Positions 8,293-27,838 of a DNA stretch of 29,764 nucleotides are shown piece after piece. Positions within the stretch are counted from its first letter, which is position 1; each line of letters starts with the position of its first letter. Position numbers and translations under genes: made by a program. Location: positions 66,647-96,410 of the forward strand of contig DBBN01000042.1 of NCBI GenBank assembly GCA_002292215.1, read 5' to 3'. The stretch is from Glaciecola sp. UBA983 (lineage in GTDB: Bacteria; Pseudomonadota; Gammaproteobacteria; Enterobacterales; Alteromonadaceae). The notes under the pieces were generated by a model that was not told the origin of the DNA, made no database searches, and was given only the letters and a program-made list of their open reading frames with translations.

Positions 8293-8310
8293 AAAGACAA
8301 CGTTGTTTAA
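8293..8310. promoter_or_regulatory. LacI-type operator, copy 1 (fructokinase/lacI-type intergenic region)
   Basis: AAAGACAACGTTGTTTAA is an exact copy of the site in front of the MFS and susC genes. It is palindromic about a central CG (ACAACGTTGT), as usual for LacI-family operators. It lies in the divergent region between the fructokinase and its presumed regulator and could serve both. Confidence 0.85.
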
Positions 8311-8386
8311 ATGATTTATGTGTTTGAACATGAAGTGAATTTTCACCTGCATTGCGCGTAACTAAACATCTGATACCGTTGTTTAT

Positions 8387-8400
8387 CAAACAATAGTTTG
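8387..8400. promoter_or_regulatory. Possible secondary regulatory palindromes upstream of the LacI-type gene
   Basis: CAAACAATAGTTTG is a 5+4+5 palindrome. It partly overlaps TTGTTTATCAAACAA (8379-8393), which carries the operator half-sites in everted order. They may be auto-regulatory or chance features of AT-rich DNA. Confidence 0.3.
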
Positions 8401-8463
8401 TAATTAATGGTGACACCTTTTTTATATGGTAGTATAAGATTATAATCAATATACACTTAATAT

Positions 8464-8492
8464 TTGATTATTTACCCCATTATGAGTGTTAT
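8464..8492 (+). promoter_or_regulatory. Candidate promoter of the LacI-type regulator
   Basis: TTGATT (8464-8469), a 17-base spacer and TGTTAT (8487-8492) lie just before the chosen start at 8513. The -10 is weak. A better -10 (TATAAT near 8440) has a poor -35. Confidence 0.3.
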
Positions 8493-8512
8493 ATGCATCT
8501 ACGAGAATATCA

Positions 8513-9505
8513 ATGGTAACAATCAAGCAAGTCGCAACGCATGCTGGCGTATCCTTTAAGACTGTATCGCGAGTCGTTAATAACGACCCTACTGTAAAAA
8601 AAATTAATCGCGATAAAGTGGTTAACTCCATTAAAGAATTAGGATATCGCCCGAATCGAGCTGCAAGCATTACTCGACGAAAAAAGTCTGGAATTATTGG
8701 TTTTATTGCAGATGATTTATTAAAGGTACCTTACACCTTTGATCTTATAAGGGGGGCACAGAAAGTAGCTTGGGAACAAAACAAAGAACTAATGGTACTG
8801 AATGTCACTGAAGATCGTTACAGCGCTGAGTTAGCTGCCCAACACCTGATGGAGCACAGAGTAGAAGGTATCATCTATGCAGCAATGTATCACCATGAAG
8901 TTATTTTACCTGAAATATTACTTGAGTGTCCTACCGTACTCGCTAATTGCTACTGTCAAAATACGCAATATCCAAGCATTGTTCCTGATGAGGTTAAAGC
9001 TGGCGAAACCGTGGCACTCGCATTGCTCGACGCCGGATATCGCAAAATCGCATTTCTCAACCTGAATGAACAAATCATCGCAGCACAAGATAGAAAGCAA
9101 GGCATAATTAATGCATTTATCCTTCGTGGCGTTCCATTGGAAAATTTGCATATTGAATCTGTTTTCCATGGGTCACCAGATAAAGAAGTTTCCAACTCAC
9201 GAGAGGCGACCGCCAGAATTGCGCGTGAATTCAAACCCGACGCCATTATTTGTGGACAAGATCCGATTGCAGTAGAAGCTTACTTTGTATTGCAGTCCAT
9301 GGGAATCCAAGTGGGTAGAGATATGGGCATCGCAAGCTTTGATGATTGGGATACTATCCCAGCCTTACTACAACCCGCTTTATCTACAATGGCACTGCCA
9401 CACTTTGATATGGGTAAATGGGCAATGGAATATCTGCTAGAGGAAAGGCAAGATATAGTGCACGAAAAACTTCCCTTCACCTTAGTTAAAAGAGGCTCTT
9501 ATTGA
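8513..9505 (+). CDS. LacI-family transcriptional regulator of the fructan locus
   Basis: This DNA-binding repressor has 330 residues. An N-terminal helix-turn-helix (MVTIKQVATHAGVSFKTVSRVVNN) and hinge are followed by a periplasmic-binding-protein-like sugar domain starting at SGIIGFIADD. The C-terminal part has FDDWD (as in IASFDDWDTIP), typical of the GalR/LacI group. I chose ATG 8513 rather than the in-frame GTG at 8486, because family members begin a few residues before the helix-turn-helix and a GAG ribosome site precedes it. It is divergent from the fructokinase and overlaps the convergent permease gene by 7 bases. It is the only regulator in the locus, so the four LacI-type palindromes here are most simply its operators. 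The inducer is probably a fructan-derived sugar or phosphorylated fructose. Confidence 0.93.
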   Translation: MVTIKQVATHAGVSFKTVSRVVNNDPTVKKINRDKVVNSIKELGYRPNRAASITRRKKSGIIGFIADDLLKVPYTFDLIRGAQKVAWEQNKELMVLNVTEDRYSAELAAQHLMEHRVEGIIYAAMYHHEVILPEILLECPTVLANCYCQNTQYPSIVPDEVKAGETVALALLDAGYRKIAFLNLNEQIIAAQDRKQGIINAFILRGVPLENLHIESVFHGSPDKEVSNSREATARIAREFKPDAIICGQDPIAVEAYFVLQSMGIQVGRDMGIASFDDWDTIPALLQPALSTMALPHFDMGKWAMEYLLEERQDIVHEKLPFTLVKRGSY

Positions 9506-10737
9506 GCTGTAGACTTTTTGTTAAGCACATCTTGCGTTGAACTGAGTAAAAAGTAAGAAACAATAGTAAAAAATAAAACTACCCCGCCTAAAATTTTGTA
9601 TGAAAGTGGAAAACCTAAATTGTCATACATCATACCGGCAAAAATAGACAATCCAGAAGCCATTAATTGTGTCGAAAACTGAAACCCGACAATATAAAGT
9701 GTTGCCGACATACGCGCGTCAAAGATTTGCGTTATATATTTAAATATGGCTACCAACATTATGGGTAATTCAACCGCGTGAAGTAGTTTCATTAAAGAAA
9801 TTGTGATTGTATCATCAGCATATCCTGAGCCAATGATACGAATCGCCATAATCAAACCACTTAATATTAGACTATTTTTAGCGCCAATTTTGATTACCAG
9901 AAACGGTGCTAAAAACATTCCTCCAGCTTCCAAAAATACTTGGAATGAATTTAAGTAACCATAGGTTGCATTTCCATCTTGCTGATTTTCAAACATGGAT
10001 GCAAAGTACACAGGGAACTGTTGGTCATAAACGGAATAGACGCAAGTCACTCCCATCACAAAAATCACAAATGCCCAAAATTCTCGCATGAATAACAAAC
10101 TTGAAACCAACTTCAAATCAAATTTTTCTTCATGTTCCTCATTTATTTTCTTAACAATCTGGTCTGTCTGACTAAGCGCAAGTGAAAAAATTAAAACAAT
10201 AAACACACAAGCACTCAATGACGCTAACCAAAAGTTAATGTCGGGTCCTTTGTTAAATAAGTAACCAGCACAAAAAGTAGCAACGGCCCACCCTAGTGAA
10301 CCCCACATTCGAGCGCGTCCAAATTCAAAACCACTTGTCCTGGCCACCCTCTCTACATAACTCTCAAGCACACCAATTGCAGCCCCAAAAGCAAGCGCAA
10401 AAAACAATCCGCCCAAAATAGCCGCTGAATAAAAATGACTAAGTAACAGAGGACTGTATACAAAAATAAAAAAAGGACCGACCGCCAGTAAGAGTAAGGC
10501 AATAAAGAACAGTAAATTTTTGCGTAAGACAAGTTTGTCTTGCAGATAGCCATAACATGGCATAACAAACAGTGCCGCTATAGCATTAAAACTGAAAATG
10601 ATGCCAATCATTTCTCCTGTAAGCCCAACATGTTGACTGAGCCAAATGGGAAATAATGAGAATGAGAATGACCAACATAAAAAGAAGCTAAAAAAAGCAC
10701 CACTTAAAATCCAGTAAGTTTTTTTCGAATTTATCAC
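9499..10737 (-). CDS. LacY/CscB-type disaccharide-proton symporter
   Basis: This twelve-helix inner-membrane MFS permease (412 residues) belongs to the oligosaccharide:H+ symporter family. Motifs match LacY closely. LESYVERV contains the counterpart of sugar-binding Glu126 (here Glu125). FEFGRARMWGSLGWA holds the counterpart of Arg144 (Arg143). KLLHAVELP retains the His and Glu of the LacY proton site, followed by FKYITQIFDARMSAT. Sucrose or a short fructo-oligosaccharide is the likely cargo in this setting, but lactose, melibiose or raffinose type cargo cannot be excluded. The start is GTG at 10737 with AGAGAG upstream. It converges on and overlaps the LacI-type gene. No clear copy of the 18-bp operator is seen upstream. 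Confidence 0.92.
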   Translation of the reverse strand: MINSKKTYWILSGAFFSFFLCWSFSFSLFPIWLSQHVGLTGEMIGIIFSFNAIAALFVMPCYGYLQDKLVLRKNLLFFIALLLLAVGPFFIFVYSPLLLSHFYSAAILGGLFFALAFGAAIGVLESYVERVARTSGFEFGRARMWGSLGWAVATFCAGYLFNKGPDINFWLASLSACVFIVLIFSLALSQTDQIVKKINEEHEEKFDLKLVSSLLFMREFWAFVIFVMGVTCVYSVYDQQFPVYFASMFENQQDGNATYGYLNSFQVFLEAGGMFLAPFLVIKIGAKNSLILSGLIMAIRIIGSGYADDTITISLMKLLHAVELPIMLVAIFKYITQIFDARMSATLYIVGFQFSTQLMASGLSIFAGMMYDNLGFPLSYKILGGVVLFFTIVSYFLLSSTQDVLNKKSTAQ

Positions 10738-10874
10738 TGATACTGCTCTCTGTGTATGGATTAACTTGGCATTTGAAAGCTATGTTCTTAGCTATATTGC
10801 CGCTTAATGTTTAAAACATAAATAATATTTGCAAATTTATAACACTAGATTTAGAAGCCAAATATGTTTGTTGT
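10738..10874. promoter_or_regulatory. Upstream region of the disaccharide permease
   Basis: AT-rich region between the permease start and the terminator of the five-module gene. It holds two palindromes unlike the fructan operator: ATGTTTAAAACAT (near 10808) and ATTTGCAAAT (near 10829). No confident -35/-10 pair could be assigned. Confidence 0.35.
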
Positions 10875-10911
10875 AAAAGACAGGCTATATTAAAAATAAC
10901 CTGTCTTTTTT
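10875..10911 (-). terminator. Intrinsic terminator after the five-module protein gene
   Basis: The stem AAAAGACAGG (10875-10884) pairs with CCTGTCTTTT (10900-10909), giving a T-run on either strand. It lies just past the minus-strand stop at 10929. Confidence 0.8.
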
Positions 10912-10928
10912 AGATAAGCTCCCAATGA

Positions 10929-13900
10929 TTACTTAAAGCGTGTTATTCCAGAAACAGAAATATCATCACTTTGCGCATACACTCCTACTTCACTCGTTGC
11001 AAGATCATACAGTCTAAAACTCAACGCTCTGAAGTCATTAACATAAACAGCACCAATTCCTTGCACAGGGTCAAGTAATATTTCGATATTAACTCCTAAC
11101 AAAGGGTCTATAGTACTCAGCACCTGTGGGTTAGCTGTATTGCTGCGATCATCTTTATTATAAAAAGTGACCTCATTAGTTGTACCGTTAATTTCCACAA
11201 AATGCTCACTGTTATCTGAAGTGTCTTTAAATTGCACGCCAAATATCGCACTTTCATTGTCGCTATTGATGGTAAATGAGAGTCTATTTTTACTCGCTTC
11301 ACTGGCTAGTAACATATGTGAACCCGCAGGTATATTAACCTCGCCAGAATTTTCGGTCACATTACCAGAAGCTGAAGCAGACGAAGTAGACAGAACGTTC
11401 ACCAATGCTTCTCGATATAGTTCAGGCATTTTAACCGCAAGTTGGCCATCATTAGTAACATCTAATTGATGAGCCATAAAGTTTCCGCCAAATTCTTCAC
11501 TACCAGAATCGCTTCGACCATCACTGCCAGCAACCCATGCCATTAACAATTTATCAGTACTTGAACCAGCAGACTTAGCGGCATAGAATCTGCGCCCGTC
11601 TAAAGAGTCCATAGTCGGTTTTACCCAAACGCCATTTTCTTTAACTAAATATTTCACCGTATGTTCTTCGTCTCGCTGGTCAGAATAAACAATAAATTCA
11701 TGACCATCTAACTGGATAAAGTCAGTGACTTCTAAATTAAGCGGTGACGTTTCTGTATAAAGTGGTTCCTGCGGTGTCCAAACTGATAAGTCATTCGAGG
11801 TATAAAGTCCAATGGCTGCCTCATTGTTATAGCGAGTGGTAATGAGCATCCAATAGTTTCCTGTAGATTGATTCCAAAATACCATTGGATCTCGAAAGTC
11901 AAAATCACTATAGCCGCTGCTGCCAGAGAATATCTCGTCTTCTAGCACCGTCCAATTGTACAAACTCTTATCTTCTGCTATTGCATGATAGACCTGTTCA
12001 ACTGGGCTAATTTGTCGGTTGTGCCCAGTAAAGAAGATGTGAGTTTTACCTTCTTGATCGACCAATACACTGCCCGAACCTAAAAACTGATCATGACGAT
12101 TGTCATCGCCCGACGCTTTCAATACTTCAACAGGCGCGGTTGAACTGATCAGATCTTCAGTTTTTATAAGGCCCCAAGAATGGTATCCAACGTTTTGCAA
12201 ATAAAACACGTGCAACACGCCATCTATCATAATTGGGTTAGGATCGATCATGTCCAAATTTAGTATTTGACTGTAAGTTTGGACTGAAGACACTACGCTA
12301 TCAGCTGCCGGTTGCGATGCAGCTTTATTTGCTTGACGAATTTGGTCAACAATAATAAAGGGGAAGCTTCCATCATCTTGTGCATTATCATGGTGATCCA
12401 TGACTTCAATTTGAGCCTGCATACCTATTAATGCCGATACATTCCAAGAATCCCAGGATAATTCTTTTTCTAATCCATTACCACTCGCTTGGCGAACAAT
12501 CTTACCATTAACACGCAAAACAATAGCTGTAGCATTATCCATGTCAAAGGTATTAGTGCCCCCCCCCACTAAGAAATTGATGTAGGAAGCACTAATCGTG
12601 AAACTGGGTGATTTTAGGGTACCGGTAGCTTCCCAACCTAAGAAACCAGCGTCAGTAGCATTGCTGTCGACAAACGATTCACCATAGGTAGCGAGCACCC
12701 TGTCACCAATATGGTTTGTGATATCAGCAGCCCATTGGCCGCCGTTCAGGTAGATCATATCGCCAGTGGCAAAAAAGTCGTGCTCTTGATAGGTATTATA
12801 TCCACCACAGCAAAACTCAAAACCGGCGATATTTTGTGCCTCTGCATTCAAACGAGTAAATGCCGGAGCACCGTCACTCTCAGGTGTACTTGTCAAAGCA
12901 CTGGCGCTAAAACTAATGACGCTGTCTGATTTTGGCACCGCGGCAGGTTCATCTGACGCCCTAAATTCATCTGCTAGAACATAAGCAAGGCTATTGTCAG
13001 AATTATCATCTGCATGATTATCTATAATCATTACTTGCGCACTTTCGCCTGCTAAATCTATCACATCCCAGGTTAGCCATTGCATGCTGTCATGCTCATT
13101 TTGTCCTGTCGCTTGACGAACAATATCCCCATTAACTAACAGTACAATAGCTGTCGCATTTGCTTGATCAAAACGATTAACACCACCGCCAATCAAAAAG
13201 TTGATGTAATTAGCATCGATGATAAAGGCCGGTGTTTTAAGTGAACCTGTTGCGGCTAAACCAATGTGTTCAGCGCTGGTATCAGAATCATTATCGAAAC
13301 CGTCACCGTAACTAGAAAAGACTCTTTCACCGATTGTGCCAGCAACGCCAGCGCCCCAAAAACCACCATCGAGTTTCAGAAAATCACCAGTGACTTCCTC
13401 AAATTCATGCTCTTGATAGGTGTCGTAGCCACCACAACAAAATTCAAACCCTGCTATATTTTGCCCCGGGTCAGATTGGCGGGCAAAAAGACTATGGCCT
13501 GAAGTACTTGGTGTTGTAGTTAATTGCACCTCAAATACGGGCGTATTATCTGGATCAAGAGGGTTGCTATCATCAACATCATTGATGCCGTCACCATCAT
13601 CATCTTCGTCTGCATTATTACCCACCCCATCATTATCGGTATCAATTGTTTCGCTTGGATCGGTTGGGAAAACATCATCAATATCATCCACGCCATCGCC
13701 GTCGTCATCATTATCATTAATATCTAAGATGCCGTCAGAATCGGTGTCTCTTTGCGCTTCATATGGGTCTCTTGCCGCTTTATCTGCCCCACGGAATTCG
13801 TCAGCCAAAAGATATGGCACTGATGCATCGTTGCCATCATCACTATGTAAATCAATAAATTGGACAACAGCACTTTGGCCCTTAAATTCCCTTACATCCC

Positions 13901-15839
13901 AACTGGTCCATTGCATGCTATTAGCAACATTTTGTCCGCTGGCAGAGCGCACTACGTCACCGTTAATAAGCAATACAACGGCAGTTGCAGCAGCACTACT
14001 ATAAGGGTTACTCCCGCCACCAACAAGAAAGTTAATATAGTTGCTATCTATTACAAATGCTGGACTTAACATTGTGCCAACCGCGGCACCACCTAATTGA
14101 GCGACTTGATCAGAACCTTCGTTAGCACCATCACCATAACTTGAAAAGACTCTTTCGCCTACATGACCGGCAACATCAGCTCCCCAAAATCCACCGTCTA
14201 ATTTAGCAAAGTCACCCGTTATTTCAGTAAACTCATGGACTTCGTACGTGCCAAACTTACCGCAGCAAAACTCAAACCCAGCAATATTCTGAAATTCATC
14301 AGCGGCGCGTAAAAATAAACTATTGCCCTCTGTAATCGGCGTCATTGTTAGCACAACAGGGGGTATTGTGGGTTCTACAACTGGACCCGTATCTTCAATT
14401 TCAGCTGCAGGAAGATTTGCGGCACGAAACTCATCTGCTAACAAATATGACAAAGTACTGTCATTGCCATCATTACTATTCAAATCAATGAATTTAATTT
14501 GCGCAGTCTTTCCAATATATGACGAGACATCCCAGCTTGTCCACTGCATGGCGTTAGCTACGTCACTACCACTTGCATCGCGCACTATGTCGTCTTCAAT
14601 TAACAGCGCCACCGCGGTTGCTTTATCACTATCAAATGAATGACTACCGCCACCCACTAAAAAGTTGATATATAGCGAATCAATTACAAAGGAAGGACTC
14701 AGCATTGTACCTACAGCTTCCCCACCTAATTGTGCAACTTGGTCAGACCCGTCCTCAGCACCATCGCCATAACTCGAGAACACGCGCTCGCCAATATGGC
14801 CTTCTACGTCAGCTCCCCAAAAACCACCGTCTAACTTGGCAAAATCACCCGTTATTTCGGTAAACTCATGTACTGCATAGGTACCAAATTTTCCACAGCA
14901 AAATTCAAATCCAGCAATGTTCTGAGCGGCGTCTGCTTCACGAACAAACAAGCTGTGTCCCTCTGACTCTGGGGTCTGGGTCAATTCTTTGCTCAGCTTG
15001 GTCGGTATTGCTGCTGGAATATCTGCCGCACGAAATTCATCTGCTAATAGATAAGGTAGGTGCGCATCGTTGCCATCATCATTGTGCATATCAATAAACT
15101 TTATGGCTGCTATTTGGCCTGTCATTTCTGATACATCCCAACTGGTCCAAACCATTTTGTCTGCAACATCGTCGCCACTAGCTGCTCGCACCACGACTCC
15201 ATTTACAACCAAGGCAACTGCGGTGGCTTTATCACTGTCATAAGGGTTGCTGCCCCCACCGACTAAAAAGTTAATGTAATTTGATTGAATTTCAAATTCA
15301 GGACTTTGCATTGTTCCCGTCGCAGCCCAACCTAGTTGTGCAACTTGATCGGAGCCATCTTCAGCACCATCGCCATAACTCGAGAAAACACGTTCTCCGA
15401 TATGTCCATCAATTGCCGCGCCCCAAAAGCCGCCGTCTAACTTCGCAAAATCTCCCGTTATATCTGTAAATTCATGGGCTTCATAGGTACCAAATTTACC
15501 ACAGCAAAACTCAAACCCTGCAATATTTTGAAAGACATCACCTTGTCGAACAAATAGACTATTACCCTCAGTTGCAGGTTGGTCAGTAATTTCAATTACT
15601 GGGCCTGTCGGAGGTGTAGTTGTCGGTGGTGTAGTTGTCGGTGGTGTAGTTGTCGGTGGTGTAACTACTGGACAACCTTGACTCGTTAACTCACAAGCAT
15701 CTTGCCCAACTTCAAGAACAACAACTTCTATATCTGTGTCTTGTTTATTGTCCCCCGAACAGGCGCTTAAATTGACTAAAGCTCCTACGCCAATCATTGT
15801 TGATATCGCAATCTTTCTCAATTTTAATATATGCATCAT
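10929..15839 (-). CDS. Five-module lipoprotein with divergent GH32-like catalytic propeller
   Basis: This large exported lipoprotein has 1636 residues, with a lipobox LSAC and Cys27. After a Pro-Thr linker (57-79) come five copies of a module of about 190 residues (83-273, 286-475, 497-686, 772-963, 981-1173), with thrombospondin-type-3 calcium repeats between the third and fourth (698-766). A five-bladed propeller of the GH32 kind (about 1189-1475) keeps the three acids as IDPNP (Asp1199), FRDP (Asp1317) and LEVTD (Glu1370). The normal NDPNG and ECPD boxes are altered. A C-terminal beta-sandwich (about 1490-1636) ends the chain. Each module carries YINFLVGGG, a VVRxASG turn and WTSWDV, shared with the inserted domain of the neighbouring GH32 protein. 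It is probably a surface fructan-binding and perhaps fructan-cutting protein. An AGGA ribosome site supports the start. A near-operator with a -10 box lies upstream. Confidence 0.85.
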   Translation of the reverse strand: MMHILKLRKIAISTMIGVGALVNLSACSGDNKQDTDIEVVVLEVGQDACELTSQGCPVVTPPTTTPPTTTPPTTTPPTGPVIEITDQPATEGNSLFVRQGDVFQNIAGFEFCCGKFGTYEAHEFTDITGDFAKLDGGFWGAAIDGHIGERVFSSYGDGAEDGSDQVAQLGWAATGTMQSPEFEIQSNYINFLVGGGSNPYDSDKATAVALVVNGVVVRAASGDDVADKMVWTSWDVSEMTGQIAAIKFIDMHNDDGNDAHLPYLLADEFRAADIPAAIPTKLSKELTQTPESEGHSLFVREADAAQNIAGFEFCCGKFGTYAVHEFTEITGDFAKLDGGFWGADVEGHIGERVFSSYGDGAEDGSDQVAQLGGEAVGTMLSPSFVIDSLYINFLVGGGSHSFDSDKATAVALLIEDDIVRDASGSDVANAMQWTSWDVSSYIGKTAQIKFIDLNSNDGNDSTLSYLLADEFRAANLPAAEIEDTGPVVEPTIPPVVLTMTPITEGNSLFLRAADEFQNIAGFEFCCGKFGTYEVHEFTEITGDFAKLDGGFWGADVAGHVGERVFSSYGDGANEGSDQVAQLGGAAVGTMLSPAFVIDSNYINFLVGGGSNPYSSAAATAVVLLINGDVVRSASGQNVANSMQWTSWDVREFKGQSAVVQFIDLHSDDGNDASVPYLLADEFRGADKAARDPYEAQRDTDSDGILDINDNDDDGDGVDDIDDVFPTDPSETIDTDNDGVGNNADEDDDGDGINDVDDSNPLDPDNTPVFEVQLTTTPSTSGHSLFARQSDPGQNIAGFEFCCGGYDTYQEHEFEEVTGDFLKLDGGFWGAGVAGTIGERVFSSYGDGFDNDSDTSAEHIGLAATGSLKTPAFIIDANYINFLIGGGVNRFDQANATAIVLLVNGDIVRQATGQNEHDSMQWLTWDVIDLAGESAQVMIIDNHADDNSDNSLAYVLADEFRASDEPAAVPKSDSVISFSASALTSTPESDGAPAFTRLNAEAQNIAGFEFCCGGYNTYQEHDFFATGDMIYLNGGQWAADITNHIGDRVLATYGESFVDSNATDAGFLGWEATGTLKSPSFTISASYINFLVGGGTNTFDMDNATAIVLRVNGKIVRQASGNGLEKELSWDSWNVSALIGMQAQIEVMDHHDNAQDDGSFPFIIVDQIRQANKAASQPAADSVVSSVQTYSQILNLDMIDPNPIMIDGVLHVFYLQNVGYHSWGLIKTEDLISSTAPVEVLKASGDDNRHDQFLGSGSVLVDQEGKTHIFFTGHNRQISPVEQVYHAIAEDKSLYNWTVLEDEIFSGSSGYSDFDFRDPMVFWNQSTGNYWMLITTRYNNEAAIGLYTSNDLSVWTPQEPLYTETSPLNLEVTDFIQLDGHEFIVYSDQRDEEHTVKYLVKENGVWVKPTMDSLDGRRFYAAKSAGSSTDKLLMAWVAGSDGRSDSGSEEFGGNFMAHQLDVTNDGQLAVKMPELYREALVNVLSTSSASASGNVTENSGEVNIPAGSHMLLASEASKNRLSFTINSDNESAIFGVQFKDTSDNSEHFVEINGTTNEVTFYNKDDRSNTANPQVLSTIDPLLGVNIEILLDPVQGIGAVYVNDFRALSFRLYDLATSEVGVYAQSDDISVSGITRFK
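11415..12275 (-). other. Divergent GH32-like five-bladed propeller domain
   Basis: Residues about 1189-1475 of the 1636-residue protein. Asp1199 (in IDPNP), Asp1317 (FRDP) and Glu1370 (LEVTD) line up with the GH32 nucleophile, transition-state stabiliser and acid/base. The intervening text (HIFFTGHNRQISPVEQVYHA, YWMLITTRYN) is of GH32 type. The acids suggest that activity may remain; the changed flanks suggest a changed substrate or linkage. Confidence 0.7.
12321..15593 (-). repeat. Five tandem GH32-associated beta-sandwich modules
   Basis: Coding repeats of about 190 residues at 15021-15593, 14415-14984, 13782-14351, 12951-13526 and 12321-12899. Signatures in each are AGFEFCCG, GDF.KLDGGFWGA (altered in the fifth), GERVFSSYGDG, YINFL(V/I)GGG and W.(S/T)W.V. 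Copies 1-3 share FCCGKFGTY and copies 4-5 share FCCGGYxTYQEH, suggesting two rounds of duplication. Synonymous sites differ, so the duplications are not recent. Confidence 0.9.
13542..13748 (-). repeat. Thrombospondin type-3 calcium-binding repeats
   Basis: Residues 698-766 of the 1636-residue protein hold repeated DxDxDGxxD motifs such as DDDGDGVDDIDD and DTDNDGVGNNADEDDDGDG. They form a calcium-stiffened spacer separating modules 1-3 from 4-5. Confidence 0.88.
15611..15670 (-). repeat. 15-bp tandem repeat encoding a Pro-Thr linker
   Basis: Four 15-bp units (G-A/T-GGTGTAGTTGTCG on the plus strand, the last diverged) encode PPTTT units just after the lipid-anchored N terminus. The copy number could vary by slippage in steps of five residues without a frame change. 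Confidence 0.85.
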
Positions 15840-15848
15840 TTCTTCCTA

Positions 15849-15878
15849 ATACCAATGTCATTATTGTCATATTGGTAT
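15849..15878. repeat. Inverted repeat in the leader of the five-module gene
   Basis: ATACCAAT (15849-15856) and ATTGGTAT (15871-15878) form an 8-bp stem ending 3 bases before the AGGA ribosome site. It may affect translation or be a dispersed repeat. Confidence 0.6.
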
Positions 15879-15909
15879 GCAGATTTGGATACTGATTATT
15901 CACTCTCGG

Positions 15910-15931
15910 ATAAACAAACTTGTTTATTATA
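15910..15931 (-). promoter_or_regulatory. Variant operator and -10 box of the five-module gene
   Basis: ATAAACAAACTTGTTTAT (15910-15927) is a perfect 8+2+8 palindrome. It matches the exact operator at most positions, differing mainly in the centre (AC for CG). On the minus strand TATAAT (15931-15926) overlaps its edge, the same -10/operator contact seen at the MFS and susC promoters. No good -35 was found. Confidence 0.6.
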
Positions 15932-16032
15932 ATAAAGTTATCAGTAATGAAATCTGCAACCGTTTTAATTATTTTTTATATTTCAAAATAAACTCGAAAT
16001 TCAGTTCATTCCCTAATTAGCATTCGCCTTAA

Positions 16033-18159: not shown

Positions 18160-18178
18160 TATTTCGTCTCGTGTATTG

Positions 18179-19483: not shown

Positions 19484-19529
19484 ATAAATCTCTATTTCAA
19501 AATTAGCAAGCGCAACTAACTTGCACAAA

Positions 19530-19547
19530 TTAAACAACGTTGTCTTT
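19530..19547. promoter_or_regulatory. LacI-type operator, copy 2 (MFS-GH32 unit)
   Basis: TTAAACAACGTTGTCTTT is the exact reverse complement of copy 1. It lies 47-64 bases before the MFS start and overlaps the promoter at its -10 side, so a bound repressor would block initiation. Confidence 0.88.
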
Positions 19548-19575
19548 TTATACCTTATGATTTAATTATATTCAA
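19547..19575 (-). promoter_or_regulatory. Promoter of the MFS-GH32 operon
   Basis: Reading the minus strand, TTGAAT (19575-19570), a 17-base spacer and TATAAA (19552-19547). The operator begins within the last base of the -10 box. Confidence 0.75.
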
Positions 19576-19626
19576 CATATTTCAACATTTAAGTCGAATA
19601 AAGTTAACATTCATCCGTTTACCTGC

Positions 19627-22600
19627 TCATTCTTTGTAGGTAATCATCATATGTTTGTTTGCTGGAACATTCTTAAGTTGCTGTTTTTGTCCATCAGGCC
19701 AAATAACAGTCAGTTTATCAACAATACTATTTAACCCTAGCCCAAAATGCGCAACTAGAGGGTCATTAGACAGATAGTTTGAGCCCAATCTGATTTCACG
19801 CAATTGTTGCATTTGTCCAGTTTGCACAATAATCTTAGCCCCTACTCCATCAGGATTGCCTAGTTTACCCACTAACTTTACGGATAAGTAGCCACTGCCT
19901 GATAAGTTATTATTACTGTACAAAGTTGGTCCAGCCCCATTGTTGGCGATAATGATATCTACATCTCCATCATTGTCGAAATCCAGACAGCTAATTCCTC
20001 TACCCTGACCAGTGTGGGTAATTCCCCAATCAAGCGACTTCTCACTAAAGGTCCCATCTTGATTGTTGATAAATAGGCGGCTGGGATCCTCATAAAATTG
20101 CCCTACCTGCGACTCTTCAGCAATCTGCCCAGTGCGCATGCCATTGGTATGAAAAATGTCTAACCAGCCGTCATTATTAAAGTCGGCAAAACAAGCTCCC
20201 CAGCCCCAATAACCTTGTCGAACACCAGCCCTATCGGTGGCATCCGAGAAATTACCTTGACCATCGTTATTATAAAGACGGTTTCCAGTTGTTCCGCCTT
20301 TATAGGCCTTTTGCTCAATGGGATTCCAAATAGAGCTTACAAACCAATCTAAGTCACCATCGTTATCGTAGTCCCCAAGGGCCGAGCCCATCCCATTTTC
20401 ATCATTTATGATTGGACTTGTTGCATCAACAAATTTCTTGTCCTCATTAAGCAAGACTTGCGTCGTTAAATAATCTGCTGCTATGAGTAAATCCAGATCA
20501 TTATCATTATCGATATCACTAAAAACAGGTACGAAATTTACATCTAAATCAGGATAAAGTGGTGATATTCTAGTTTGAGGTAGCAATGCACTAACGTCTT
20601 CAAACATGCCTTTTGCGCTGTTATTCCAAAGATACCCCTGACGCACAGTGGTTGTTACATCTCCCCAATGTGCAGCAAACAGATCCAAATCACCATCACC
20701 GTCATAATCACCAGCGGATAAGGAATGAGTGAATCGCTCAAAGCTTATGCCTGCCTTGTTAAACGAGGGACGCATAACACCACTTGGAAATTGAGTAAAG
20801 AGTCTGAAATATCCTTGATTAATGTCATCCTCTACCAGTAATAAATCTTTATCACCATCTTGGTCATAGTCCATAAACAATGCGCCCAATTGCCTACCGC
20901 TGAAATTGCCTAGTATTTTGGTGGTAACATCAACAAAGCCTCCTTTCTTGTTATTCACAAAAAGTTTACCTGGTTGCATAGAATGGCTAATAAATAAATC
21001 CTCCCAGCCGTCTGCATTAAAATCATCTACGGCAACGCCCCCCCCCATTAAATGGTATTCATCTGAAAAAGTAGGGGCCGCTAATTTATAATCCAAACCA
21101 CTTTGCTGAGTGACATCGCTAAACCAGCTAGCTCGCGGGTCTGTTTTTGGTAAATCACTGAGGGGACTTAATGCTTTAAATGCAGCGGGTGTGTAGGTAT
21201 CAGCTTGCTCAGAAAAGTTGGCAAAAACGCCCTGTAGCAAGTTTCCATCGGGTCCCTTGTCGTCGTTACTGGGTAACCATTTCTTTATACAGCTTGGGGT
21301 TTGTATACAAGGATCGGTGAGCGTAAATAAAAAGGCTTCCAGCAATAGAGCATCTTGTTCTGGCGTTGATGTATTCACGAGTTTTTTTGCATCAGGCGTG
21401 GCTAAAAAGGTTTGCAGTACCTCTGCGTTTATTGCCTTAGCACGATCGGGGCGTGCTGCAATATGACTAAATTGGGATAAGTGCTCGAGTCCAAAATTAT
21501 AATTTGCTAACGACGTTGATGGGTTAAAGTGATGTTTAATAACTTGCTTAAGATCCGCAAATGCACCGGCATGACTCCAAGGACCCGTTACCTGAACATT
21601 TAGCAACATGGGAGTGCGAAACTTGTATTTGTCGGTAATGATCGAAGTATTTAAGAGTCGGCCATGGTCGGTACCGCTAGAGTCTTTACCGCGCCCAATT
21701 TGCGGTGCTGCGATAGTATAGAACTTCTCATCACTGAAACCAGGGCCTGAATGGCAAGAATTACAAGCTAGCCCCCCTTGTTTTGGAGTACTAAAAAATA
21801 ACAAGGCACCTTTTTTAGCTTGTTCTGAAATGGCCTTTTTATTACCGGCTACATAGTCAAACCAAGGGTTAGTCGTCAGCACCAGTGACTTTTGATAGTG
21901 AGACAAGGCCTTAGTTACCCTATCAATGGTGATCACAGTTTCAACATTTTTCTGAGTATCCTCAAATGCGTTTTGAAACAAAGGCAACCATGGAGAGCTT
22001 TTGCTTATTTCGTCTGCTTTTAGCAGATTATTTAACACCAACCGTCGTTTTTGACTATTGCTGTCAAGTTTATTAGGACCATGACCAAACATCTCATGGA
22101 TTGCAATAATTGGAAATCTGGCTTGTGCCTGAATAAAGTCATTACCCGCATTCAAATCAGGCAAGTTCTTTACACTATCAGGGGTGCGCAAACGGATAGT
22201 CTTATTCTTGTTGTTTTGCCCTTCGCTGAGCTCTTCGTTTATCACTTCTACACGGCCATCCCAAAATGCCGCTTGTTTCAATAAGTGAAGATTAAAGATA
22301 GATGATGCATTTCGTGGCGCATTAGGACCACCATCAGCGCGGGGATCGACAAGTCGGTTGCCATCATGTACTCGTCCTGGTCCCAGTATGGATGGATCCA
22401 ATGCATTGACACCAACGGATAATGACAGTCCATCACCACCACCGAGCATGGGATGATGACATGACACACAGGCGACATCATTGTTCATACTTAAAGATTT
22501 GCTGAAAAAAAGTTGTTGACCTAGTTGCCATAGAGCACCATTTGTCAATGTATCTGTGTTTAAGTGACTGAGTTGCTTTTGCAGTTCAAGTTCTTTAATG

Positions 22601-22779
22601 CGGACACTTAGTAGCTTATCTAGCTCTGGTTCGCTAAGCTCACTGGTGTCAAAACCTGATGCTTTTATTAGAATGTCTTCACTAGCCTGAACCACATTTA
22701 AAGTGCAAAACACACAGAAAACACAGTAAATAAGAAAGCGATGGCATTTGTTAATAGTCTGAAATTGATAACTTAACAT
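19627..22779 (-). CDS. Di-heme cytochrome-peroxidase/FG-GAP propeller/UnbV fusion protein
   Basis: This exported protein of 1050 residues has three parts. A signal peptide (about 1-32, ending VQA) leads to a MauG/cytochrome-c-peroxidase-like domain (about 80-500) with two c-heme sites, CVSCHHP (Cys104-His108) and CNSCHSGPGFSD (Cys339-His343). Then come seven FG-GAP/VCBS calcium motifs (DDFNADGWEDL, DYDQDGDKDL, DYDGDGDLDL, DIDNDNDLDL, DYDNDGDLDW, DFNNDGWLDI, DFDNDGDVDI) between about 585 and 942, enough for one seven-bladed propeller. A C-terminal ASPIC/UnbV domain (about 965-1045, IWPDGQ) ends it. FG-GAP plus UnbV proteins (CRTAC1-like) are often seen near SusCD pairs; the heme part is the odd addition. 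It lies 67 bases after susD with a hairpin between, probably in the same transcript. Its redox substrate is unknown. Confidence 0.88.
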   Translation of the reverse strand: MLSYQFQTINKCHRFLIYCVFCVFCTLNVVQASEDILIKASGFDTSELSEPELDKLLSVRIKELELQKQLSHLNTDTLTNGALWQLGQQLFFSKSLSMNNDVACVSCHHPMLGGGDGLSLSVGVNALDPSILGPGRVHDGNRLVDPRADGGPNAPRNASSIFNLHLLKQAAFWDGRVEVINEELSEGQNNKNKTIRLRTPDSVKNLPDLNAGNDFIQAQARFPIIAIHEMFGHGPNKLDSNSQKRRLVLNNLLKADEISKSSPWLPLFQNAFEDTQKNVETVITIDRVTKALSHYQKSLVLTTNPWFDYVAGNKKAISEQAKKGALLFFSTPKQGGLACNSCHSGPGFSDEKFYTIAAPQIGRGKDSSGTDHGRLLNTSIITDKYKFRTPMLLNVQVTGPWSHAGAFADLKQVIKHHFNPSTSLANYNFGLEHLSQFSHIAARPDRAKAINAEVLQTFLATPDAKKLVNTSTPEQDALLLEAFLFTLTDPCIQTPSCIKKWLPSNDDKGPDGNLLQGVFANFSEQADTYTPAAFKALSPLSDLPKTDPRASWFSDVTQQSGLDYKLAAPTFSDEYHLMGGGVAVDDFNADGWEDLFISHSMQPGKLFVNNKKGGFVDVTTKILGNFSGRQLGALFMDYDQDGDKDLLLVEDDINQGYFRLFTQFPSGVMRPSFNKAGISFERFTHSLSAGDYDGDGDLDLFAAHWGDVTTTVRQGYLWNNSAKGMFEDVSALLPQTRISPLYPDLDVNFVPVFSDIDNDNDLDLLIAADYLTTQVLLNEDKKFVDATSPIINDENGMGSALGDYDNDGDLDWFVSSIWNPIEQKAYKGGTTGNRLYNNDGQGNFSDATDRAGVRQGYWGWGACFADFNNDGWLDIFHTNGMRTGQIAEESQVGQFYEDPSRLFINNQDGTFSEKSLDWGITHTGQGRGISCLDFDNDGDVDIIIANNGAGPTLYSNNNLSGSGYLSVKLVGKLGNPDGVGAKIIVQTGQMQQLREIRLGSNYLSNDPLVAHFGLGLNSIVDKLTVIWPDGQKQQLKNVPANKHMMITYKE

Positions 22780-22796
22780 ATTAATTTAATCGTAAG

Positions 22797-22827
22797 AGCA
22801 GGTCTGTCAAAATAAGACAGACCTGCT
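22797..22827. promoter_or_regulatory. Perfect hairpin between susD and the cytochrome fusion gene
   Basis: AGCAGGTCTGTC (22797-22808) pairs with GACAGACCTGCT (22816-22827) around a 7-base loop. On the minus strand no T-run follows, so it is a poor intrinsic terminator. A stability or attenuation element that sets the expression of susCD above the downstream gene is more likely. Confidence 0.7.
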
Positions 22828-22846
22828 AAATTACATTTAATCGAGC

Positions 22847-24559
22847 TTAATAACCGGGATTTTGTACATAGATCCCACCACTTAAGTTGATTTGTTGGTT
22901 AGGTATAGGTAAATACTCGTGTTTACCTTTCGTAAATGCTGCTGCTTCAAGATATGGCTTTCTGATGAGTTCAATCTCAAAATAAGCATCTAATGTTTCT
23001 TTTGTTACTCCCCAGCGCACTAAATCGAAGAAACGATGCCCCTCTAAACCCAGCTCTAAACGACGTTCCCAACGTAACGCATTAAAAGCTTCTTCTTTAC
23101 TAGCAAAACTACTGTAGGTATTGATGTTATAGATACTGGCATCATTTAACATACCTGTGCTATTAGCAGCTCGGGTGCGTAGACTATTGATAATTGGTAA
23201 TGCTTCCTCATAACGGTCTAATTGAATTAACGCTTCTGCTTTCCACAACAATACTTCAGCATAACGAACCAAAACAGTGTTCATTGACCAAATTGGGAAT
23301 GGACCATTTTCACCACGGCAATCGCAATCAGGATGTTCCAATTCTTTCATGCTAGTAAAATTTCCATAGATGCCCGGTGCGCGTGACCAAGAATCACCAC
23401 CATGAATTAATGTAGGATCATATTTAAAGGGTTTACCTTCCATTGCAACAGTATGGTCCAAACGTGGATCAACATTATCAGACAACATATCGTAATTAGC
23501 ATCATTATAATTTACAAATAATGGTAGTCCATTGTTGTTAGTTTTAAAGGCGTTGACGAAATTATCTGTAGGAACATGAAATCCGCAGCAGCCGAACCCA
23601 CCAGCCTGAGGTGCATTCAACGCAGTTGGCCATGAACCACGACCATCAGGTGAGCCGTCATCTAATGAACGCTGTATAGCGAAGACTGATTCTTTGCTAT
23701 TATCAAAGGCTGCCTGAAAGTTGTTTCCATAGTCATCAAGCAAACCGTAAATACCGGAAGCTTCAATTTCACTCACCAACGTAACAACTTCATTCAGTTT
23801 ATCACTATCAATAGACACGACCTCGTGCTTGTCATTTTGCACATACGCTTGATTCAACAATGTTTTTGCTAGGTAAGCTTTGGCAGAAAGGGCTGAAGCA
23901 CGGCCTACATCTTGCTGCACATCAGGTAAATTTTGTGAGGCAAAGCGGAAATCTTCAGCAATTTTATTCCATAATTGTTGATCAGTGAGATCACGGTTAG
24001 TGGTCGCTAATATTTCTTCTTGTGTCATATTTTCATCAATCCATGGAATATGCTTATGATGAATTTTCAAGTCAAAATAAAAAATAGAGCGTATAAAACG
24101 TAGTTCTGCCTGCTTCTCTTTTGCATTAGGAATACTTGCAGCATCGGCATTAGCAATAACTTGTAATCCGGCATTAGCTCGAGATATACCAGTATAATTC
24201 CGTGTCCATTTTTTATTGTTAAGATCAATTAGGTCAGGTGGAAAAGATTCCATATCTGGCACTAAAGGCGCAAACATTGATAGAGCATGATAGGCAAAGA
24301 TATCACTTGGCCCATTACCCCCTTTATGTGCATCTCCTGCACGTAAATTACCAGTTGGCCACAAAAACATAGGCGATGTGTAATGATCATTGCCTAAATA
24401 AGAATAGGCTGCAATGACCAAACCATCTATATTCTCAGCACTGGTGACCTGCGCTTGGGTTAATACGGCTTTGGGTGGAACATCAAGGTCGCCGCTGCCG
24501 CAAGATATAACGGACATAGCTATTAAACTACTTGCAAATAATTGATACATTTTTTTCAT
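22847..24559 (-). CDS. susD: SusD/RagB-family surface glycan-binding lipoprotein
   Basis: This outer-membrane lipoprotein of 570 residues is the substrate-binding partner of SusC. The lipobox SVISC (Cys20 from the chosen start) is followed by the usual N-terminal LDVPPKAVLT and an Ala-Tyr-Ser-Tyr-Leu helix. The C-terminal part has the SusD signature NTVLVRYAEVLLWKAEALIQL, then LRWERRLELGLEGHRFFDLVRWG and the closing LPIPNQQINLS. I chose the start at 24559 because AGAG lies at a good distance. ATG 24580 has its purine run too close, and GTG 24613 abuts the susC stop. SusD is typical of Bacteroidota. Here it follows susC by 54 bases within a LacI-controlled fructan locus. GGFGCCGFH holds adjacent cysteines. 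Confidence 0.94.
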   Translation of the reverse strand: MKKMYQLFASSLIAMSVISCGSGDLDVPPKAVLTQAQVTSAENIDGLVIAAYSYLGNDHYTSPMFLWPTGNLRAGDAHKGGNGPSDIFAYHALSMFAPLVPDMESFPPDLIDLNNKKWTRNYTGISRANAGLQVIANADAASIPNAKEKQAELRFIRSIFYFDLKIHHKHIPWIDENMTQEEILATTNRDLTDQQLWNKIAEDFRFASQNLPDVQQDVGRASALSAKAYLAKTLLNQAYVQNDKHEVVSIDSDKLNEVVTLVSEIEASGIYGLLDDYGNNFQAAFDNSKESVFAIQRSLDDGSPDGRGSWPTALNAPQAGGFGCCGFHVPTDNFVNAFKTNNNGLPLFVNYNDANYDMLSDNVDPRLDHTVAMEGKPFKYDPTLIHGGDSWSRAPGIYGNFTSMKELEHPDCDCRGENGPFPIWSMNTVLVRYAEVLLWKAEALIQLDRYEEALPIINSLRTRAANSTGMLNDASIYNINTYSSFASKEEAFNALRWERRLELGLEGHRFFDLVRWGVTKETLDAYFEIELIRKPYLEAAAFTKGKHEYLPIPNQQINLSGGIYVQNPGY

Positions 24560-24613
24560 AATTTTTCTCTGATTTTTCATCTTTAATCTGTCTATACTAT
24601 GGAATAAATACAC

Positions 24614-27598
24614 TTAGAAACTCACATCTATGCCGATAGTGATTCGTCGAGGAACCGGAAAGACCTCATTTGGAGCCTCAGGATCTTGGCTCAAGGTTCC
24701 GTTTGGAGTAATGGTTAATAAATTTGATCCCTGAAGATAAATACGGGCATCCTGAATACCATAGTCATCTAACACTGTGTCCTCAAATCTGTAACCCACC
24801 GACAAGTTTCGTAATTTCAAGTAGCTTCCATCTTCCCAAAAGAAACTCGACTGTCTACCTTCACCATTGTTGTCGACTAATGTTAACGCCGGTACTGTCG
24901 AGTCAGTATTAGCAAGTGACCATGCATCTAATACTCGCGAACCATAATTCGAACCAATATTTAATGAGGTGAAATCAGTAAATAGACGCCAGTTATTTCT
25001 GACAGACCCGCCTTTTACTCCTTGCCAAAACATATTGAAGTCCCATTGTTTATGATTAAGAGTAAAGTTGAAGCCGTAGATGAAATCAGGATCAGGGTTA
25101 ACAAAATAATCCTGATCATTTTCATCAATAATGCCGTTATTATCTAAGTCTGCCCAACGAATTCGTCCAAGCCCAGCAGCTGATTGAGCAGCGTGCTCTT
25201 CTATTTCTTGAAGGCTTTGAAATAATCCATCAGCAACATACCCATAGACAGAATTTATAGAGTTACCTAAAATAGTTTTATCTTGACCGTTACCGCCAAA
25301 TGAATTCACCACATCTTCAGGTAAAGCAATGACCTTGTTGTCTGCTTTAGAAATGTTAAAACTCATATCAACTTTCAATTCTTCATCCAAGAAATCAAAA
25401 TCTAAATAATCTTCGTATCCTATAATGAATTCGAAGCCACTATTATCGATAGTCCCGCCATTTACCCATTGCTGAGCTCCTTCGCCAAGCGTCGCAAGTG
25501 GTTGAGTTAAGGTGAGTATATCTTTGGTTTCTTTTTTGAAATAATCCAAGCTACCATAAACTGTTGTGTTTAAGAGCTGGAAATCTAGACCTACATTACT
25601 TTGAGTCGACGTCTCCCACTTCAAATCAGGATTGCCAGTTTGTGCTCTTACAAAACCAGAAGGTAACGTGCCACCATTGGCTCCAGCAATATCGTAAGCG
25701 GTACCCTCATCTTGTCTATCCGTGAACAAAGATTGAGTTGCATAGCGAGGTTGATAAGTCGTGTTTGTAGCAGTTGTTGGAATCTCCTGATTACCTGTTT
25801 TACCATAACTAGCACGCAATTTAAGCGTCGATACAAACTCGATATCAAAGAAATCTTCGTTGCTAATTACCCATCCGGCCGAGGCTGCTGGGAAATTACC
25901 ATATTGGTTGTTTTGACCAAACTTAGATGAACCATCTCTACGCATAGTCAAGCTAGCTAGATAACGTTGATCGTAACTATAATCGACCCGACCAAATATA
26001 GAATCTAAAGTCCATTCGTCGCCATAACCCTCGACCCTTACATTGTCAGTTGCTTGTGATAAGAATGCGAAATCACGATCATCCGATGCAAAACCAGACC
26101 CGATACCTCTTGATAATTCGGTTTCAAAATCAATTTGTTCTATACCTGCTAAGAAAGTAAATTTGTGCTTATCATCCAACAACAATTTGTATTCTGCGGT
26201 AGTAGCTAACACAATACTTCGATTCCAATTGTTTTCAACCGAAAGGTTATCGCTAAAATTTAGCGTGCCCGCCTGATATCCACGCTGGAAATTTCTAAAA
26301 TTGAACTGCCCATAGTCAATGCCAACACTACTGCGTAATTTTAGGTCTTCAATCGGCGAATATTCTAGAAAGAAACTACCTTGAAATTTGTTAAACGTAT
26401 GATTATTATCTCTATTTCTTTCAATTATACCTACTGGATTATCTCTATCAGTAATGCCTGGAACCGGTCCACCCCATCCGCCTGCATCATTATATACCGG
26501 TACGATCGATTGCTGTTCAATGGAAAGCCCTAGTATACTTCCTGCTAAATCATTTATTAGATTAGCTCGTTGATTAGTAACAAGTAAGGTTTGCCCAACC
26601 TTAAGTTTATTTTCAATAAGATCATGATCAGAATTGACCCTAAACGCAATCCGTTCAAATTTTGAGCCATCAACAACTCCTTCAGCATTAAAATAACCTA
26701 ATGAAGTATAAAATCGAGAACTGTCACTGCCTCCTGACAAAGATAAATTAAGGTCTCTTACTTGAGATGAGCGTGTTACTTCATTAAACCAATCCGTATC
26801 AGCTGGTCTTTGTACACCGTTTGGATCTGTAAAAGCTGGCAAGATCACCTTGTACAATTCAGGATTATCATAATCCTTATTCCAATCGAAGGTATACAAA
26901 GCACTTGCTCGATCAGGATTTGAACCATCATTAATAGCCGCTTGCCATACCGATTGTGCACGTTGCGCAGTGTTAAGAGGTCGTAGATCATAGTCAAAAT
27001 CTTCAAAAGTTTGATTGAATCTAAAGTTAAAGTCTAAACCCTCTCTACCCTTTTTAGTAGTTACTACAATTACGCCATTACCAGATCTAGCACCATAAAT
27101 GCTGGCTGCTGCTGCATCCCTTAACACCTGTATGTCTTCAATGTCATTACTGTTAATTTCGTGCAAACCACTTTTTGACGGAATACCGTCAATAATATAA
27201 AGGGGATCATTGTTACCCAATGGGCCTAAACCCTGACCACGAATGCGTACTGTCGCGGTGGAACTAGGGTTACCATTTGTAGTAATTTGCAAGCCAGGAA
27301 CCCTGCCTTGTAGATTTTGCATGACGTTACCCGCGGGTAAATCAATTACGTCTTCTAATTTCACCGTTGATATCGCACCGGTCAAGTCTGATTTTTCAAC
27401 AGAGCTGTAACCATAACTAACTTCTATTATTTCAATATCGTTATTTTTTTTAGCTACTTCACTGACAAGTAAATTAGCTGATTCTTTATTCTCAACGTCT
27501 TGTGCTTGCGCCATACTTGGAATCATTAGCATTAATGAACAGTTAAATAATACTGCCCTAATGCTAAATGAAAGTTGATTTAGTTTTAGATTTTTCAT
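24614..27598 (-). CDS. susC: SusC/RagA-family TonB-dependent outer-membrane transporter
   Basis: This outer-membrane barrel of 994 residues imports oligosaccharide with SusD. A signal peptide (1-32, ending AQA) is followed after only about 25 residues by a TonB-box-like IEIIEVSYGY and the plug domain. The SusC signature is clear: DLTGAISTVKLEDV, ATVRIRGQGLGPLGNNDPLY, IIDGIP, VLRDAAAASIYGARSGNGVI and VVTTKKG. The barrel ends in ITIGIDVSF, with a terminal Phe. The carboxypeptidase-D-regulatory-like domain found in many Bacteroidota SusC proteins before the plug is absent. The ribosome site AGGATGG supports the start. It is the first gene of susC-susD-cytochrome fusion, under a strong promoter and exact operator. 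Levan, inulin or fructo-oligosaccharide is the likely cargo from context. Confidence 0.95.
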   Translation of the reverse strand: MKNLKLNQLSFSIRAVLFNCSLMLMIPSMAQAQDVENKESANLLVSEVAKKNNDIEIIEVSYGYSSVEKSDLTGAISTVKLEDVIDLPAGNVMQNLQGRVPGLQITTNGNPSSTATVRIRGQGLGPLGNNDPLYIIDGIPSKSGLHEINSNDIEDIQVLRDAAAASIYGARSGNGVIVVTTKKGREGLDFNFRFNQTFEDFDYDLRPLNTAQRAQSVWQAAINDGSNPDRASALYTFDWNKDYDNPELYKVILPAFTDPNGVQRPADTDWFNEVTRSSQVRDLNLSLSGGSDSSRFYTSLGYFNAEGVVDGSKFERIAFRVNSDHDLIENKLKVGQTLLVTNQRANLINDLAGSILGLSIEQQSIVPVYNDAGGWGGPVPGITDRDNPVGIIERNRDNNHTFNKFQGSFFLEYSPIEDLKLRSSVGIDYGQFNFRNFQRGYQAGTLNFSDNLSVENNWNRSIVLATTAEYKLLLDDKHKFTFLAGIEQIDFETELSRGIGSGFASDDRDFAFLSQATDNVRVEGYGDEWTLDSIFGRVDYSYDQRYLASLTMRRDGSSKFGQNNQYGNFPAASAGWVISNEDFFDIEFVSTLKLRASYGKTGNQEIPTTATNTTYQPRYATQSLFTDRQDEGTAYDIAGANGGTLPSGFVRAQTGNPDLKWETSTQSNVGLDFQLLNTTVYGSLDYFKKETKDILTLTQPLATLGEGAQQWVNGGTIDNSGFEFIIGYEDYLDFDFLDEELKVDMSFNISKADNKVIALPEDVVNSFGGNGQDKTILGNSINSVYGYVADGLFQSLQEIEEHAAQSAAGLGRIRWADLDNNGIIDENDQDYFVNPDPDFIYGFNFTLNHKQWDFNMFWQGVKGGSVRNNWRLFTDFTSLNIGSNYGSRVLDAWSLANTDSTVPALTLVDNNGEGRQSSFFWEDGSYLKLRNLSVGYRFEDTVLDDYGIQDARIYLQGSNLLTITPNGTLSQDPEAPNEVFPVPRRITIGIDVSF

Positions 27599-27632
27599 AC
27601 ATCCATCCTGTGTGTGTGTTTGGATAACTCAT

Positions 27633-27650
27633 TTAAACAACGTTGTCTTT
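27633..27650. promoter_or_regulatory. LacI-type operator, copy 3 (susCD unit)
   Basis: TTAAACAACGTTGTCTTT is identical to copy 2 and the exact complement of copy 1. The identity with copy 1 extends to 22 bases (27629-27650 against 8293-8314). It lies 35-52 bases before susC, in the presumed transcription start region. Confidence 0.88.
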
Positions 27651-27655
27651 ATACA

Positions 27656-27684: not shown

Positions 27685-27739
27685 CATATATTTAACAAAA
27701 GTTCTACTGTTTCGACCAGTTAATCAGGATTTAATAAGA

Positions 27740-27827: not shown

Positions 27828-27838
27828 TATTTGGACAT

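Follow-up and report, generated by a model that had tools for sequence, protein, structure and literature searches.

In the passages of the literature that bear on them, susCD tandems are described as having been found to date in Bacteroidetes alone (PMC4829426), and the SusC/SusD pair is given as the mark of polysaccharide utilization loci (PULs) unique to that phylum (PMC6262041); a further passage, citing Thomas 2012, holds that in Proteobacteria SusD is apparently discarded once transferred, being unfit for their physiology (PMC7874173). Thousands of susCD PULs in algal bacteria are mainly discussed for Bacteroidota in the relevant section of another work, which is silent there on any share of Gammaproteobacteria among them (PMC10233909). 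A further article contains a statement making susD exclusive to Alteromonadales (PMC11678492), in which Bacteroidetes was apparently meant; we placed no weight on it. For a Glaciecola metagenome-assembled genome (MAG), an expressed fructan PUL with GH32 has been described in a text whose passages on that PUL leave SusCD unmentioned (PMC10108472). As to regulation, SuxR of Xanthomonas is an established case of a LacI-family repressor acting on a TonB receptor, in the account of that system (PMC1790865), and even palindromes with a central CG, mostly 30-140 bases upstream, are described as typical of LacI-family transcription factors (LacI-TFs) in the corresponding section of a study of these (PMC4052901). 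Here we analyzed 29,764 nucleotides of Glaciecola sp. UBA983 (assembly GCA_002292215.1, contig DBBN01000042.1, positions 66,647 to 96,410 of the forward strand; hereafter the window, numbered from its first base), in which three copies of a predicted LacI-type operator lie before genes of a fructan locus that includes a susCD pair. An intact SusCD pair in a gammaproteobacterium, under a predicted host LacI repressor, is at odds with the printed Bacteroidota-only statements.

The 18-base operator AAAGACAACGTTGTTTAA occurs without a mismatch at 8293-8310 (+), 19530-19547 (-) and 27633-27650 (-), exactly where a first-pass annotation of this DNA had placed it. Operator 1 lies between the divergent fructokinase and lacI genes, 62 bases from the fructokinase ATG (8230) and 202 bases from the lacI ATG; operator 2 lies 46 bases upstream of the sugar-porter ATG (19483), and would be overlapped by a longer alternative reading of that gene from a TTG at 19537; operator 3 lies 34 bases upstream of the susC ATG (27598). 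The copies before fructokinase and susC agree over 22 bases (AAAGACAACGTTGTTTAAATGA), as the same annotation had correctly said, and its argument that three such 18-mers are not due to chance was borne out: with up to three mismatches allowed, 100 dinucleotide shuffles of the window gave a mean of 0.04 matches and at most 1, and the host genome (2,684,593 bases in 129 contigs) holds these three exact copies only. With up to two mismatches the genome yielded the three sites and a single further match, with two mismatches, against 2 matches for a reversed-pattern control. The 12-base core RACAACGTTGTT is present exactly at the three sites and once more in the genome, inside an open reading frame (ORF) read as ribosomal protein S1.

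The regulator gene at 8513-9505 (+) encodes a 330-residue LacI-family protein scoring over the cut-offs of PF00356, PF00532 and PF13377. Its recognition helix, GVSFKTVSRVV, is kept as GV(S/A)FKTV(S/A)RV in the orthologues listed. Three features by which a LacI-type local regulon is recognized were found, namely a helix-turn-helix with a periplasmic-binding-like domain, an even palindrome with a central CG close upstream of the genes, and conservation of the site together with the regulator across genomes. This protein is the sole DNA-binding regulator in a Pfam scan of nine locus genes, and within that scope the earlier view of it as the only regulator holds. At the window edge, beyond the genes scanned, an ORF at 10-1683 resembles a PAS-type kinase by eye.

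The regulator and SusD occur together. Among 196 genomes of the host's family, SusD (PF07980) was found in 13, from 5 of 52 genera, all with 54-100% identity to the window SusD; it was also found in 6 of 394 genomes of the host's order, while at the level of the class 2 of 369 genomes matched, the host itself and a 7%-contaminated genome in which the match was partial. A LacI orthologue (E value up to 1e-70) was present in 14 of the 196 genomes and 6 of the 52 genera. Both proteins were found in 12 genomes, SusD only in one (G063), LacI only in two (G076 and G167) and neither in 181, giving a Fisher p of 2.5e-16 by species and 2.7e-4 by genus, the genus-level figure being the fairer one because related species are not independent. 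Named organisms among the best 120 of 4386 SusD hits in the protein database were all Gammaproteobacteria where names were readable, most hits being unnamed; likewise, the named ones among the best 120 of 475 LacI hits, again mostly unnamed, were Gammaproteobacteria save for one 'Pseudomonadota bacterium' and one sediment metagenome.

We then compared the stretches around susC (about 20-59 kb; mostly about 40 kb, with 20 kb in G158, 22 kb in G129 and 59 kb in G000, the host genome) from the 12 Alteromonadaceae genomes having both the LacI orthologue and SusD. The sites recur in these related genomes: in all 12 the core RACAACGTTGT ends 35-44 bases upstream of the susC ATG, and a Paraglaciecola contig (L008) likewise has it upstream of susC. 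Some of the 12 carry core sites also before GH32, lacI, fructokinase and sugar-porter genes. Counting ATG frames of at least 90 residues as coding, and including among the 12 loci that of G142, nearly a copy of G000, 47 of the 48 core sites are non-coding in stretches where non-coding DNA makes up 15% of bases. None of the three gammaproteobacterial SusCD loci without this LacI (G063, Cellvibrio L006 and Pseudomaricurvus L007) has a core site in the 20-39 kb scanned, nor has the Bacteroidota locus L009 over a stretch within the same range. These sites, conserved in other genera and nearly always non-coding, together with the shuffle and genome controls, leave hardly any probability to the alternative that the 18-mer arose by chance or as a mobile repeat and has no part in regulation, an alternative that draws on the resemblance, by eye, of the stretch between gcvP and susC to decayed mobile DNA. 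That a LacI regulon includes susCD, as the first-pass annotation proposed, is thus a prediction well supported in silico.

A genome-wide count of the stricter pattern RACAACGTTGTTNA, made on both strands so that a perfect palindrome can count twice, found the 12 genomes with LacI and SusD to contain 40 matches, where the reversed control had 27, and 22 other genomes to contain 9, where the control had 59; 20 of these 22, all but the genomes behind L006 and L007, had been searched for the LacI orthologue. By their listed coordinates, 35 of the 40 matches fall in the susCD stretches, 2 on contig C19 of G177, which carries a second LacI/GH32 cluster, and 3 elsewhere; G168 has the susC site and none fitting the stricter pattern. 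These counts bear on whether another LacI-family protein binds the sites, with the local LacI acting elsewhere or on operator 1 only. The host genome does encode four LacI-domain proteins; however, the recognition helices of the remaining three read LATV, QSTV and TATI where the local one reads FKTV, and RACAACGTTGTTNA tracks the local orthologue, so we regard that possibility as unlikely.

Both genomes with LacI only have the operator upstream of the sugar-porter gene. In G167 we considered whether a plain TonB receptor had taken the place of SusCD and rejected this: the receptor nearby adjoins GH43, SapC, halogenase and ThuA genes and is without an exact operator. No receptor was seen in G076 before the sugar porter, where a 928-residue ORF, cut by the contig end, matches only the GH32 C-terminal domain.

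Another alternative is that a Bacteroidota-type sensor encoded elsewhere, of the hybrid two-component or sigma/anti-sigma kind, drives susCD, the LacI sites serving the sugar-porter and kinase genes only. Passages of two reports (PMC5967196, PMC7782687) name the hybrid sensor BT1754 as the regulator of the Bacteroides levan locus, and two frames of 1320-1340 residues with Reg_prop repeats lie on host contigs C38 and C82 (L091 and L093). Nevertheless, the operator stands before susC in all 12 LacI genomes at a narrow distance, no such sensor is found among the nine locus genes scanned, and SusC has no STN domain, since Pfam finds Plug and barrel only; we judge this alternative very unlikely and keep susCD within the LacI regulon. 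As a separate observation, Reg_prop repeats are the sensor type of Bacteroidota hybrid two-component systems, here seen in a gammaproteobacterial genome.

The promoter context of susC fits repression by LacI. A promoter-like TTGAAA-17-TATAAA ends 8 bases before the 12-base core of operator 3, and under a loose pattern TTG(A)NN-17-TANNNN pairs are found in 8 of 13 susC upstream regions, with 4-8 bases separating their end from the core; this hexamer spacing would put the operator on the transcription start. In the absence of a cytoplasmic fructan breakdown product, LacI would sit on the palindromes, one near each transcription start, and block transcription of three presumed units, fructokinase, sugar porter-GH32 and susC-susD. 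Once fructan became available, a small product of low basal uptake and hydrolysis would reach the cytoplasm, the likeliest inducer being free fructose, sucrose or a short fructo-oligosaccharide; a sugar or oligosaccharide is favoured over a sugar phosphate of a phosphotransferase system (PTS) because the locus encodes MFS permeases and a sugar kinase, and transport appears not to be by a PTS. Release of the repressor would then bring a joint rise of outer-membrane uptake by SusCD, GH32 cleavage, inner-membrane transport and phosphorylation.

The susC gene (24614-27598, -) is directly followed by susD (22847-24580, -), the arrangement of a SusC/SusD pair; the susD start was taken at 24580, as in the 577-residue database form, in a frame open up to 24613. 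The SusC-like TonB-dependent transporter scores 682.9 bits with TIGR04056 (cut-off 368.25), TIGR04057 matches the pair as well, and the SusD-like lipoprotein is over the cut-offs of PF07980 and PF14322. Searched against named genomes, the window SusC has a counterpart of 100% identity in a Glaciecola MAG; identity is 91% (best segment) to Paraglaciecola, 60% to Cellvibrio and 55% to Pseudomaricurvus, and among Bacteroidota it peaks at 42%, with a Dysgonamonadaceae MAG; the window is therefore gammaproteobacterial, and a Bacteroidota host, which the first-pass annotation had implied, was rejected on the Glaciecola match. In consequence its remark that a LacI-run SusCD is a different wiring stands only in part: LacI is ordinary for such a host, and it is the SusCD pair that is unusual and foreign. 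The operator finding can be stated more strongly than it was there, and the reason for interest changes.

In a tree of 23 SusC sequences, the 14 gammaproteobacterial ones lie on one side of a branch with support of 96/98, recovered in 94% of bootstrap trees; they neighbour the Dysgonamonadaceae row, and full support separates these 15 from the remaining eight Bacteroidota rows. Long branches meet at that place, as the tool warned, and Bacteroidota sampling is thin; on this tree a single entry of SusC into Gammaproteobacteria is favoured. The closest solved structures include 5t3r_D for SusC (E value 1e-239) and reach an E value of 7e-124 for SusD, the chains including 5t3r and 6z8i, which are the Bacteroides levan importer according to the relevant part of its description (PMC7782687). 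Four of the eight ligand-contact residues named for the Bacteroides levan SusD are identical here (D67, C298, C299 and R368); Y395 is Phe and W85 is Leu, both read by eye, and D41 and N43 are changed in the alignment.

The N-terminal carboxypeptidase-regulatory-like extension (PF13715), usual in Bacteroidota SusC, is absent from the window SusC by Pfam, which finds Plug and barrel alone. Its deletion harms growth in Bacteroides, its role being left open in the passage concerned (PMC7782687). PF13715 was found in 8 of 21 aligned SusCs (8 from Bacteroidota and 13 from Gammaproteobacteria), a count at the level of the alignment with rows not identified; individual checks placed it in L011, L017 and the N-terminal piece of L009 and showed L006, L007 and the window to lack it, and inspection of the SusC N-termini by eye agrees with this distribution. 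In G089, susC (L041:14462-17424) is split into two reading frames, by gene decay or sequencing error.

The regulator beside SusCD varies: this LacI, a ROK protein in Cellvibrio (L006) and G063, and another LacI, 29% identical, in Pseudomaricurvus (L007). The ROK gene adjoins a PfkB kinase gene, with no LacI, in both G063 (L038:2401-4727) and Cellvibrio (L006:7344-9709), and no regulator was seen among three further ORFs scanned at the nearest Bacteroidota locus, L009. We give an even chance to a history in which a Bacteroidota fructan importer entered Gammaproteobacteria, probably once, lost the SusC extension and was captured by different host repressors by lineage; under the same evenly weighted proposal these would be LacI with the AACAACGTTGTT operator in Alteromonadaceae, ROK in Cellvibrio and one Alteromonadaceae genus, and the other LacI in Pseudomaricurvus. 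Downstream of gcvP in G181, G006 and G055, three relatives from the host's genus that lack the locus, neither window genes nor genes from the 15.6 kb beyond the window were found, the sole exception being one weak 27% match; in two closer relatives the contig runs on past gcvP for about 0.2 kb (G118) and 1.4 kb (G162) before it ends. Between gcvP and susC in the window, at 27650-27900 (-), a short decayed reading frame that starts MSKYHRAFKLNL resembles by eye the start of an insertion sequence transposase.

The other genes of the locus are all on the minus strand. A PfkB-family sugar kinase (7268-8230), probably a fructokinase, has the fructokinase model as its best NCBIfam match at 193.8 bits against a cut-off of 450. 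By Pfam and NCBIfam, a LacY-type oligosaccharide/H+ symporter is encoded at 9499-10737 and a sugar-porter MFS transporter at 18179-19483; 19 bases after the latter starts the gene of a 708-residue GH32 protein (16033-18159) with an inserted module. A 1636-residue GH32 protein (10929-15839) contains five tandem copies of a module of about 198 residues without annotation, which has an FEFCCG motif and no Pfam match; the other four copies are 45-74% identical to the central one, and the insert of the 708-residue protein is related to it (32%, E value 2e-15). This is possibly an undescribed fructan-binding module; its structure model, with a mean predicted local distance difference test (pLDDT) score of 56.6, was too low for a structure search.

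Between susD and the sugar porter sits a gene for a fusion of a di-haem cytochrome c peroxidase (MauG-like) with FG-GAP repeats and ASPIC/UnbV (19627-22779, -; Pfam and NCBIfam). We rejected it as a fixed part of the regulon: relatives are found in 51 of the 196 genomes, and the fused gene is beside susCD in 4 of the 13 SusD genomes (G000, G142, G177 and G193). Fused relatives are listed also for Colwellia and Thalassotalea. A hairpin between susD and this gene (22797-22827, -; 12-bp perfect stem, -26.1 kcal/mol, z -6.2) may weaken or end transcription there.

Several points weigh against LacI control of the whole locus as a levan system. Allowing one mismatch, RACAACGTTGTT gave 70 matches in the host genome against 99 for the reversed control; with no excess over control, only the near-exact site carries information genome-wide. 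No operator was seen upstream of the LacY-type gene, and of the four sites spoken of in the first-pass annotation three are exact, the fourth being only a degenerate, weak candidate, AACAAGTTTGTT with the central CG lost, at 15913-15924 (-), 73 bases upstream of the large GH32 gene and present also in G142. Autoregulation of lacI is unsure because its start lies 202 bases from operator 1, and the peroxidase gene may lie outside the regulon because of the strong hairpin that separates susD from it. The promoter-like hexamers are missing from the five loci of genus g50 among the 13 susC upstream regions, and a general promoter scan of 19400-27760 found 17 sites against 22.7 in shuffles, no excess. 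With only four of eight levan SusD contact residues identical, the substrate may be another fructan than levan. Finally, the test genomes are related, so that species counts overstate their independence, and the argument is one made in silico. Weighing all of this, we consider it highly probable that LacI represses transcription at the three operators and that a borrowed SusCD pair, of levan-importer type and Bacteroidota ancestry, is under this host repressor, a single judgement that covers all its parts.

The locus would then represent an intact SusCD that several genera have retained, controlled by a host repressor whose operator can be read. Under the evenly weighted history given above, SusCD would be a portable module able to function together with the TonB and lipoprotein export of Gammaproteobacteria, contrary to the view that SusD is lost on transfer as incompatible; natural extension-free SusCs would make the role of the N-terminal extension testable in tractable marine gammaproteobacteria, as well as what SusD needs to work. 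The operator motif aids the annotation of fructan regulons, and susCD would be no sure Bacteroidota marker in marine metagenomes. NCBI protein names already list SusC/SusD-type proteins in Alteromonas, Pseudoalteromonas, Shewanella and Colwellia, and we recognized no account of gammaproteobacterial SusCD in a partial literature search that excluded supplements and lay mostly outside subscription journals.

Among known systems, LacI beside SusCD is not new in itself, because the xylan PUL of Gramella flava lists a LacI-family gene in its SusCD locus; it differs in its Bacteroidota host, its substrate xylan and, in the passages describing it, in having no operator mentioned (PMC5306329). The proteobacterial LacI-TF regulons of RegPrecise, in the corresponding part of their description, share the even palindrome, the central CG, the position close upstream and the local sugar regulon, and differ in that susc, tonb and alteromonad are absent from the main text (PMC4052901). 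The SuxR-sux locus of Xanthomonas resembles ours in a LacI repressor over a TonB-dependent receptor, an MFS permease and a sugar enzyme, a likeness drawn without operator comparison; unlike ours its substrate is sucrose, and the relevant part of its description names no SusD (PMC1790865). Bacteroidota PULs with a hybrid sensor differ from this locus in both host and regulator, the nine genes scanned here including no sensor. The levan PUL of Bacteroides thetaiotaomicron (BT1754-65, with SusCD BT1763/BT1762) provides the closest solved SusC and SusD, shares the vicinal cysteine pair, D67 and R368 of the SusD site, and likewise has GH32 enzymes, a fructokinase and an MFS transporter; our locus departs from it at W85 (Leu), Y395 (Phe), D41 and N43 of SusD, in a SusC free of the N-terminal extension, and in regulation, which the passages on that PUL assign to a fructose-binding hybrid two-component sensor, whereas here LacI stands in the locus.

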